Origin: Gammaproteobacteria bacterium
Lineage (GTDB): Bacteria > Pseudomonadota > Gammaproteobacteria > Pseudomonadales > Cellvibrionaceae
Length of the DNA: 50,802 nucleotides
Assembly (NCBI GenBank): GCA_025362015.1
Contig: JANYIO010000201.1
Location: 1-50,802, forward strand
Direction: 5' to 3'
The number at the start of each line of letters is the position of its first letter. Position 1 is the stretch's first letter. The notes below the pieces were generated by a model. That model was not told the DNA's origin, did no database searches, and saw only the letters and a list, made by a program, of their open reading frames with translations. This document shows, piece by piece, positions 1 to 2,498 of the stretch. The position numbers and the translations under genes are program-made.

Positions 1-784
1 AAACAATCATCACAGCAGCTCCACCTATTGTGTTGGAACTGCCACCCATAAATTCAATCACATAAAAATAAGACCAAACGATGGCCGCTAAAATTGCAGC
101 CCTTGCCATTGTGACGCCAATTGCAGAGCGAACATCCATAAGATTATTTTGAATTGTTGCGTAAAAAAGCAAACTAATAAACACGATGTTGGCTACGGCG
201 CCCACAAGTTTTAAATAGAAACTGTATTTCACCAAATATATACTAACTAAACCCATGATTAAAATTAGCATCACGGTCATTAACAACCATCTAATTCTTT
301 GTTTTTCTCTATGTGTTGCCGACTTAAATTTAGCTGCCCCAAAAGATATAGTGGCTAACAAACACAACAAAAAACTTCCCGCAAAGAAATAAAAAATATT
401 ATCAATTTTGGGTAGATAACCGCCAATAGCCGGCACCAACACGGAAGGGAAAAATAATAAATTTGAAAAAGCTAAAATTGCACTGAAGATAAAATTAGGT
501 ATGACGACTGAATACAAAAATAATCTAGCTCCGCCTCCGATCAAGCGCCATACCAAAAATGCTATAGAGGGAGCAATAAAAAACATACCCCATCTTGTCA
601 GATGAAACAACAATGTTAATGTTGGGAGGTCCTTCACAACAGTCAATAGAAATAGCTCCATCGACCATAAGCCTATACTAAAAGCTGTTAATGCCAAGGC
701 TTTAGCAGCAGAATTGTTCCGTTTAGATAAGGCTAAAAAGACAACAAAAAAATCAACCAGACACGTTACTAAGTAATGAACCAT
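1..784 (-). CDS. 7TM sensor protein, N-terminal part (histidine-kinase-type membrane sensor), cut by window edge
   Basis: An open frame runs from an ATG at 784 off the left edge; about 261 residues are visible. Translated by eye it is nearly all hydrophobic, with seven or eight putative membrane segments. A basic loop (FKSATHREKQRIRW) is followed by two more helices and the phrase LFYATIQNNLMDVRSAI, which resembles the last-helix signature of N-terminal 7TM regions of sensor histidine kinases (a Y-x-I-x-x-x-x-L-M-D-I type motif). The start lies 31 bases inside the preceding acyltransferase gene, with a GTGAGG ribosome site 6 bases before the ATG, so translation is probably coupled. The output domain (kinase, GGDEF or other) is outside the window, so the family call rests only on the membrane region. 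It could also be an acyltransferase or permease of another family, but the motif favours a sensor. Confidence 0.62.
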   Translation of the reverse strand, partial: MVHYLVTCLVDFFVVFLALSKRNNSAAKALALTAFSIGLWSMELFLLTVVKDLPTLTLLFHLTRWGMFFIAPSIAFLVWRLIGGGARLFLYSVVIPNFIFSAILAFSNLLFFPSVLVPAIGGYLPKIDNIFYFFAGSFLLCLLATISFGAAKFKSATHREKQRIRWLLMTVMLILIMGLVSIYLVKYSFYLKLVGAVANIVFISLLFYATIQNNLMDVRSAIGVTMARAAILAAIVWSYFYVIEFMGGSSNTIGGAAVMIV

Positions 785-1412
785 TCACAACCTCACTCCG
801 ACGAGTTCTACTGTATATTTTATCTCGAAACGCATTAACATCGGGACATATCGCTAATACAGTTTTAAAACTTAAATGGGGGTATGATCTTTCTTCAGAC
901 AGTATTTCAAAATGAAGAAATTTATAAAACTTAATGTGTTCTGTTCTTATACCCGCTACTAAATATTTTGCATCATGTGCAACAATAGAATTCACAATAT
1001 TTTCGTATACATTTAACCTTGCAACTACTCCAGCCTTATCTTGAAAGCTAGGATCTATAACAAGTTTATTGGCTTCAATAAATGTTGAGCCATAGCCAAT
1101 GCTTTCATCTATTTCTTTACCAAACACCTCCATCACCGGAACTATATTGTTCAGCTCTGGATTAAATGAACATGTCCGTACCGAACCAAAAGCTTTGTCT
1201 TTATAATAGGTTAAAAAAGATGTGCAATTTGGCTTGGCATCGTATTCATCCATAAATTTATGCGATGAGTTTTTCTCAATATAATCCTTCGCACTATAAC
1301 TTCTATAGCGCATAGAATACACCCTATCTAACATAGGGCCCTTAGCAGCAATACTATAATAATCGCTTTCACTGCGAAATTTTTCTTGGACTTGCAAGGC
1401 AGTAGATAACAT
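753..1412 (-). CDS. FeeM/LuxI-fold N-acyl amino acid synthase-like acyltransferase
   Basis: A 219-residue protein from the ATG at 1412, which has GTGAGG 6 bases upstream; an in-frame GTG at 1424 lies inside that ribosome site and is unlikely to be the start. The layout matches the GNAT-related fold of acyl-homoserine-lactone synthases and FeeM-type N-acyl amino acid synthases: an Arg/Tyr-rich block (RVYSMRYRSY) near residue 35, an acidic pair D-E-Y-D near residue 57, an Arg after a short strand (GSVRT, about residue 79) and a Glu in IEANKLVI (about 113), followed by a CoA/ACP-binding-like region. In those families an acyl chain from acyl-ACP is moved to an amino acid or S-adenosylmethionine. 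The product here cannot be deduced. The 3' end overlaps the start of a membrane sensor, so the two are probably one operon. PEP-CTERM-associated acyltransferases are an alternative family, but no PEP-CTERM genes are seen nearby. Confidence 0.62.
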   Translation of the reverse strand: MLSTALQVQEKFRSESDYYSIAAKGPMLDRVYSMRYRSYSAKDYIEKNSSHKFMDEYDAKPNCTSFLTYYKDKAFGSVRTCSFNPELNNIVPVMEVFGKEIDESIGYGSTFIEANKLVIDPSFQDKAGVVARLNVYENIVNSIVAHDAKYLVAGIRTEHIKFYKFLHFEILSEERSYPHLSFKTVLAICPDVNAFRDKIYSRTRRSEVVNGSLLSNVSG

Positions 1413-1466
1413 TTTGAACCTCACTGAAAATATTAATTTTGATTTATGGACAACTGGACGAGTAAA

Positions 1467-1882: not shown

Positions 1883-1985
1883 TATCAACGGTCAAAAGTA
1901 AAATAACTGTGTAAAATGACAATAATGCGCCAAACCCTACTAACATCATAAAACGTTCAATATGGACTATTTCTGGAATATCATA

Positions 1986-2498
1986 ATGAAACCTTGCTCA
2001 GCCCTCGCTCTACTTATTGTACTCACTAGCTGTGCTACACAGCCTATCCCATCCAATATGAGCGTAACTAGTTTTGGGGTATACGGAAATTGGTGCGGGC
2101 CTGACCATCCAAAAGATATGAGTACAGCAGGCTTGCCCATTGACGGGCTCGATGCTAGCTGTATGCGTCATGATATGTGCTATGCAGAAAAGGGGAAATA
2201 TGCGTGCGAATGCGACAAGATATTAAGCGAAGAACTGAAAACGAATTTATTGGCTAACAACTACCCGGCGGAACAAAAGTATTATGCACGTTCGTTTTAT
2301 CAATACTTTAAAGGGTCGTGGTGCAATGGAACACCAGACAGCAAAATCGGCGCTAGTAGAGCATTACACAATATTTATAATAATACGTCAGAAAAAGCAG
2401 TAAGTATTTATGATTACATTGTTGGCAACCCGGAAGAACATTCAGAAAATGAAAGTGCTCCCGTTACTACAAGTCAAAATGATGTTAAGAAAAAATAG
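1986..2498 (+). CDS. Phospholipase A2-like lipoprotein
   Basis: 170 residues from the ATG at 1986. This start gives a textbook lipoprotein signal (MKPCSALALLIVLTSC, lipidated Cys16); an in-frame ATG at 1962 would add eight residues in front of it. The mature part carries the hallmarks of secreted phospholipase A2: a calcium-loop-like YGNWCG (residues 33-38) and an active-site-like block SCMRHDMCY (58-66) with the His-Asp pair at 62-63, then paired Cys (CEC). The predicted role is Ca-dependent phospholipid hydrolysis at the outer membrane or periplasm, which is inference from motifs. The C-terminus is low-complexity and Lys-rich. It stands alone and converges on the lytic transglycosylase gene 8 bases away. 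Confidence 0.6.
   Translation: MKPCSALALLIVLTSCATQPIPSNMSVTSFGVYGNWCGPDHPKDMSTAGLPIDGLDASCMRHDMCYAEKGKYACECDKILSEELKTNLLANNYPAEQKYYARSFYQYFKGSWCNGTPDSKIGASRALHNIYNNTSEKAVSIYDYIVGNPEEHSENESAPVTTSQNDVKKK

Follow-up and report, generated by a model that had tools for sequence, protein, structure and literature searches.

Does the overlap of a gene for a FeeM-type N-acyl synthase with a gene for a membrane sensor kinase mark a matched pair that makes and perceives a signal, and if so, to what output is that pair connected? The question is raised by the left edge of the window, by which we mean the whole stretch of DNA analysed (50,802 nt); it is one entire contig (C151) of a Cellvibrio assembly of 4.5 Mb in 328 contigs. 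The original prediction for this edge was an acyltransferase gene of the LuxI/FeeM fold whose end overlaps the start of a gene for a seven-transmembrane (7TM) histidine-kinase-type sensor. The features concerned are as follows.

2-784, minus strand: 7TM sensor histidine kinase, N-terminal part of at least 261 aa, truncated by the contig end (PF16927, below its cut-off)
125-1229, minus strand: stretch corresponding to the exchanged cassette of relatives, from about synthase residue 62 to about kinase residue 220, with limits transferred from Cellvibrio relatives
753-784, minus strand: overlap of the synthase and sensor coding regions, 32 nt, read from the sequence
753-1412, minus strand: FeeM-family N-acyl synthase, candidate signal synthase, 219 aa, ATG at 1412 (PF21926)
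791-799, minus strand: GGAGTGAGG before the sensor ATG, ribosome-site-like by resemblance only
1413-1961, no strand: AT-rich intergenic stretch upstream of the synthase, 29.9% GC
1419-1424, minus strand: GTGAGG before the synthase ATG, ribosome-site-like by resemblance only

The synthase and its family

The synthase belongs to the Pfam FeeM family (PF21926; E=3e-32, 112 bits against a cut-off of 27), which bears out the predicted acyltransferase, and its products may be N-acyl amino acids. FeeM was the sole family found in a Pfam scan to E<=5, with no match to Autoind_synth or to the LuxM/AinS family, and an identity as a LuxM/AinS-family synthase was rejected on this basis. When a profile of 11 relatives (A9) was compared with the PDB, FeeM (2g0b; E=1e-5) was the only credible match, the others up to E=1 being three short chains of one unrelated protein. 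An identity as a LuxI autoinducer synthase was likewise rejected, as the window's protein has no match to Autoind_synth (PF00765) at E<=5, that of the relative L021 reaches 19.8 bits against a cut-off of 24, and the structural match is to FeeM and not to LuxI. Membership of the PEP-CTERM-associated acyltransferases (TIGR03694) was also discarded, the window's protein scoring 12 bits and that of L021 26 bits (E=5.5e-6) against a cut-off of 111.95. All 11 aligned members carry the motif E-x-N-K, the counterpart of which in LuxI is E-x-S-R, and the aligned synthases conserve the Arg, Asp and Glu residues that characterise the LuxI/FeeM fold.

The overlap with the sensor gene is confirmed, its length being 32 nt and not 31 as originally counted; the length is the same in 8 of the 10 loci compared, including that of Teredinibacter, with the two genes 3 and 1 nt apart in L019 and L023. 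Sites of the GTGAGG type precede both genes, as had been noted. The first 1,400 nt have a GC content of 36.0% against a mean of 41.7% (sd 2.4) over 248 overlapping segments of that size, seven of which rank lower; the left edge is thus AT-rich but not extreme. A promoter search in positions 1 to 2600 gave 9 promoter-like matches against 10.4 expected, which is the level of chance. Divergent from the synthase lies a gene for a lipoprotein-like protein of 178 aa (1962-2498, plus strand) with a sub-threshold match to phospholipase A2 (30.7 against 32.1 bits).

The sensor kinase

The sensor fragment scores below the cut-off of HisKA_7TM (PF16927; E=1.9e-5, 25.1 against 28.6 bits), and the kinase core would lie beyond the contig end; the remainder was not found in the window's own assembly. 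The fragment matches the profile A3, of which it is itself a row, at E=2.7e-118, and when aligned with complete relatives it falls at the kinase N terminus. In the one complete relative scanned, L021, the kinase narrowly passes the HisKA_7TM cut-off (29.1 against 28.6 bits) and matches HATPase_c (PF02518; E=8e-16, 58.8 bits), so that the predicted 7TM sensor is upheld by the complete relative. It had been considered that the sensor might lack an output domain or be a transporter. Complete relatives, however, continue into a phospho-acceptor box and HATPase_c, which rules out a transporter, and all 10 complete kinases examined have intact H, N and G boxes (HHEIK replacing HHDIK in one). Where the locus is unbroken, in seven relatives, the kinase has 693-698 aa, and a rough hydropathy scan suggests about seven plus two transmembrane helices. 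A REC domain is absent from the Pfam matches of the L021 kinase. The same protein aligns over nearly its full length with PrsK (TIGR02916; residues 12-661, E=5e-22), but its 78 bits fall well short of the cut-off of 300 and membership was rejected.

Partner genes and locus layout

The order of genes is the same in seven unbroken Cellvibrio loci: a TonB-dependent receptor (TBDR) gene and a gene for a DHp-like plus REC protein (DHp-REC) lie on one strand, with the synthase, the 7TM kinase and a regulator running divergently. The locus of an eighth relative (G010) is split over two contigs. Conservation of the pair in other genomes, the lack of which would have told against the original prediction, is therefore observed.

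The regulator, about 324 aa counted from the conserved start, matches PDB chain 6sy9 (E=3e-35, residues 4-271 of 324), a structure labelled in the PDB just as "Response regulator" which we take to be LqsR. Its phospho-aspartate D102 is conserved in 12 of 12 regulators and, assuming a 20-residue tag in 6sy9, aligns with the counterpart of D108, the phospho-aspartate position given for LqsR in the relevant part of PMC3376566; this agreement supports our reading of 6sy9. With matches to both the receiver and the C-terminal part and the phospho-aspartate present, the protein is identified from its sequence as a probable LqsR-family response regulator. Inspection by eye of the Cellvibrio and Teredinibacter loci showed no LqsA alpha-hydroxyketone synthase.

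The DHp-REC protein (L021 8572-9291, and relatives), of about 240 aa, combines a histidine box, HDIATPL, with a REC domain and has no ATPase match. The DHp reading is putative, HDIATPL being its sole basis; the N-terminal half matches no Pfam family, nor any PDB chain among the best 60 of 80 PDB matches. The gene adjoins that of the TBDR on the same strand; the protein also occurs in Teredinibacter and, with a changed box, in G553.

In Teredinibacter sp. ISS155 all five genes are present in a different arrangement. The window's genome also holds all five parts, on three contigs, two cut by contig ends: the DHp-REC gene and the start of the TBDR gene are on C75, and the regulator (L064, C294, 6580-7557, minus strand) lies between lnt- and corC-like genes, as named by eye, with no adjacent kinase. 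A role in phage defence was rejected, there being no PADLOC match at E<=1e-5 for four proteins, as was a recent plasmid relative, since the 12 plasmid records that match all do so at below 60% identity (25-31% in the five listed).

Distribution

The synthase was found in 8 of 36 other genomes searched as relatives, all of the same genus, and the synthase and kinase pair in 9 of 21 Cellvibrio genomes, the window's included. The pair is also present in Teredinibacter sp. ISS155 and, twice, in G553, which belongs to another order; no adjacent partners accompany it in the window's genome or at one of the two G553 loci. The synthase is narrowly distributed, its profile matching 3 of 390 genomes of the order at E<=1e-8 (that of the window, a second Cellvibrio and a weak match). 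At class level a FeeM-family match occurs in 85 of 369 genomes at E<=0.001, 70 of them above the family cut-off, and among 30 of these loci, viewed to about 1.5 kb either way from the synthase, two have a kinase of the same type beside it, those of the window and G553. Among 57 genomes around and including G553, two match at E<=1e-20, G553 and a congener; in the congener a diverged synthase homolog (L179 2386-3099, minus strand) has a changed E-x-N-K motif and no adjoining kinase.

A near-full-length regulator is present in 14 of the 21 Cellvibrio genomes, nine of which have the FeeM-type synthase, four a thioesterase-like gene instead and one (G007) a kinase fragment at a contig end. The other seven have no match to either type of synthase, and weak REC-type matches alone (E 5e-6 to 1e-4) occur in four more of the 21.

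Exchange of a synthase and sensor cassette

The strongest new evidence comes from a gene-by-gene comparison of eight Cellvibrio loci. The backbone, meaning linked genes only and not an independent species tree (kinase from residue 216 to the end, regulator, DHp-REC and TBDR), divides L020, L021 and L024 from L017, L018, L022 and L023, with L019 apart. The synthase and kinase residues 1-215 fall into quite other sets: allele A (L018, L020, L022, L024), allele B (L017, L021) and allele C (L019, L023). Pairwise distances of the synthase and the N-terminal part of the kinase are closely correlated (r=0.96, exact permutation P=0.0006), whereas neither follows the C-terminal part of the kinase, the regulator, DHp-REC or the TBDR (r -0.02 to 0.09), which correlate among themselves at r 0.84-0.96. 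In the cassette tree, alleles A, B and C have bootstrap values of 100, 99 and 100 and the two backbone groups are rejected (AU p 7e-71 and 3e-42); the backbone tree in turn rejects A, B and C (AU p 1e-5, 1e-101 and 5e-60) and needs four allele changes against a minimum of two, these AU p-values being post hoc because alleles and groups were named after the matrices had been viewed. Support for the second group in the backbone tree (94/97) is slightly below the starred level.

The extent of the exchanged region was followed in 40-residue steps through DHp-REC, synthase, kinase and regulator. In every step from synthase 41-80 to kinase 181-220, similarity is higher within alleles than between them, by over 8 points; outside this range none follows the allele, three being neutral. 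As the correlation with TBDR distances recovers gradually beyond the edges (0.05-0.51 in the first 60 synthase residues, 0.14-0.18 in kinase residues 201-280), these edges are blurred. Change-point fits on DNA for five pairs of the same group and different alleles place the left limit at synthase residues 61-69 in four, and upstream of the synthase in one, and the right limit at kinase residues 207-235 in four and at residue 417 in one. No cassette block appeared in six other comparisons. Four of these were between loci of the same allele, where none was expected; the other two set L019 against L020 and L021, which differ from it in both allele and group and where overall divergence is high. 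The cassette therefore extends from about synthase residue 61 to about kinase residue 220, the end of the 7TM region, and exists as three alleles that cut across the history of their neighbours. No mixed synthase and sensor allele was found in the eight loci. Both this exchange and the LqsR-family regulator with its further partners go beyond the original prediction.

The window and Teredinibacter share a fourth, deeper allele, with 60% identity in the synthase and 62% in the sensor. The suggestion that the region looks acquired can be kept in part: its GC content is low and the closest relative found for the pair is that of Teredinibacter. The regulator and DHp-REC of the same genome are, however, closer to those of Cellvibrio (61-65% and 48-55% to the eight loci, against 32% and 35% to Teredinibacter).

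Proposed mechanism and alternatives

A catalytic half and a sensing half that change together on steady machinery are the expected trace of selection for a matched signal and receptor, and we regard the exchange as strong support for such a match, although not as proof. The segments are adjacent, so that a single recombination tract takes both along, and linkage accounts for some of the correlation of 0.96. We consider it probable that the locus encodes a membrane-kinase quorum-sensing system made up of a FeeM-type N-acyl synthase, a 7TM kinase and an LqsR-family regulator, with co-exchanged specificity halves. In such a system the FeeM-type enzyme would link a fatty acyl chain to a head group that bears an amine, and the N-acyl product, acting as a signal, would accumulate with cell number and be bound by the 7TM part of the kinase, whose gene follows and overlaps that of the synthase. 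This binding may shift the balance of the kinase at the histidine of the HHDIK box, from which phosphate would pass to the aspartate of the LqsR-family regulator. DHp-REC could serve as a relay or phosphate sink, and the TBDR as a target or uptake partner. Swapping of the specificity halves (the catalytic part of the synthase and the 7TM part of the kinase) together between species would then create distinct signal types that feed one output pathway.

There is the possibility that the enzyme is instead a LuxI-type synthase of an ordinary acyl-homoserine lactone, coupled to a membrane receptor by the logic of LuxM/LuxN. The conserved Arg, Asp and Glu positions and the sub-cut-off match of L021 to Autoind_synth would fit this, but the absence of such a match in the window, the structural match to FeeM and the reading of E-x-N-K for E-x-S-R in every aligned member make it quite unlikely. 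Another reading is that the enzyme's product is an N-acyl amino acid lipid or surfactant which remains within or close to the envelope, as may the products of long-chain synthases linked to PEP-CTERM/exosortase systems, and that a kinase distantly related to PrsK reads the state of the envelope and not cell density. The matches of the L021 kinase to PrsK and of the L021 synthase to TIGR03694 point in this direction, both far below their cut-offs. Craig and colleagues are said to have linked long-chain synthases to PEP-CTERM in 2011, which counts for it as well. Surveillance of envelope lipids is nevertheless unlikely, since a catalytic part that is exchanged along with the 7TM part suggests a matched ligand and the regulator is of the LqsR family, whereas PrsR is described, in the part of PMC1569441 concerned, as sigma-54-interacting.

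A connection by linkage only, in which the genes stand side by side through descent, the kinase responds to some other cue and the recombination tract happens to span both segments, would agree with segments that are contiguous and overlap in most loci, and with fitted limits that are not independent, as the compared pairs share loci. We consider this very unlikely and favour a functional link, because the right limit falls close to the end of the 7TM region in four of five pairs and the left limit at synthase residues 61-69 in four of five, no mixed alleles occur in the eight loci and the pair persists away from its partners in the window's genome and at one G553 locus.

The favoured quorum-sensing system resembles LuxM/LuxN of Vibrio harveyi in having a paired synthase and receptor, a membrane histidine kinase as receptor and, as we infer here, a small N-acyl signal. 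It differs in its FeeM-type synthase, in a HisKA_7TM/PrsK-like sensor region with no REC domain matched in the kinase, and in having an LqsR-family regulator, not LuxU/LuxO, beside the kinase. The proposal that the pair is a solution unrelated to LuxM/LuxN is supported, FeeM being the only family found for the synthase in the Pfam scan to E<=5 and the only credible match in the PDB. For LuxN, nine transmembrane helices are predicted, with a ligand site between helices 4 and 7, as set out in part of PMC5007282. LqsA/LqsS/LqsR of Legionella and CqsA/CqsS of Vibrio share with our loci the LqsR-family regulator and the clustering of synthase, kinase and regulator, according to passages of PMC3376566, but no alpha-hydroxyketone synthase was seen here and the kinase is a protein of about 690 aa with HisKA_7TM. 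Membership of the Lqs system was rejected, as no LqsA lies beside the regulator by eye whereas 4 of 4 comparator loci tested have an LqsA-like gene. FeeM and the TIGR03694 synthases linked to PEP-CTERM/exosortase are of the same enzyme family (PF21926), although the TIGR03694 cut-off is not reached here (12 against 112 bits). We know of no sensor paired with either. In Staphylococcus, the agr system is divided into strain or species types in which the genes for production and sensing match. A division of this kind within one signalling system is likewise described for Vfm of Dickeya, in part of PMC9306890. Both Vfm and agr have other signals and gene families, and here the limits of exchange lie inside the synthase gene and the kinase gene.

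No description of a pair of FeeM-type synthase and 7TM kinase was found in the accessible portions of the open-licence PMC literature. With less assurance, the balance tipping modestly in its favour, we would go further and propose a Gram-negative quorum-sensing class in which a FeeM-type synthase, and not LuxI or LuxM, acts through a 7TM kinase on an LqsR-type regulator, and in which dialects are swapped as an intragenic cassette on one conserved output. A matched swap of synthase and sensor parts is what would be expected of a private chemical language. FeeM-family synthases are common, and a receptor that is linked to one of them and exchanges its sensing domain alongside the enzyme gives their products a testable function, signalling. 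The natural alleles are ready-made experiments on the residues that determine the acyl chain, the head group and the preference of the receptor.

A possible shared output: the regulator

The LqsR family would gain a further input beside Lqs and Phc. PhcX of Ralstonia is also an LqsR-family regulator moved from Lqs to another quorum-sensing input, in that case the Phc system, and FeeM does not appear in the part of the account in PMC10653808 on which this rests. LqsR-type regulators occur in 16 of 390 genomes of the order at E<=1e-15. Among 16 loci fetched from 14 of these genomes, two Cellvibrio being left out, eight have an LqsA-like synthase next to the regulator by eye, and the four of these tested all exceed the NCBIfam cut-off for alpha-hydroxyketone-type synthases.

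In four Cellvibrio genomes the same regulator lies beside a thioesterase-like protein and a kinase of 456-463 aa (L066, 7386-10552; L067, 7574-10691; L068, 7492-10648; L069, reverse strand; shorter kinase convergent). The one such locus tested matched 4HBT_2, and its kinase HisKA_7TM plus HATPase_c. The thioesterase-like gene, present in these 4 of 21 Cellvibrio genomes, was found in none of the nine with the FeeM-type synthase, and together with the shorter kinase it is a candidate second synthase-sensor module. The thioesterase type does not form one group in the regulator tree, in which long branches leave the deep part unsure, and inputs thus appear to have been exchanged. This suggests that the LqsR-type regulator is a general output onto which differing synthase-receptor modules are placed.

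In three genomes of one genus of the same order (L134, L135, L137), where no synthase was recognised by eye, an LqsR-type regulator lies within a few kb of kinases like those of Cellvibrio; two of these are of 707 aa (E 7e-33 and 2e-31), and the third is cut by a contig end.
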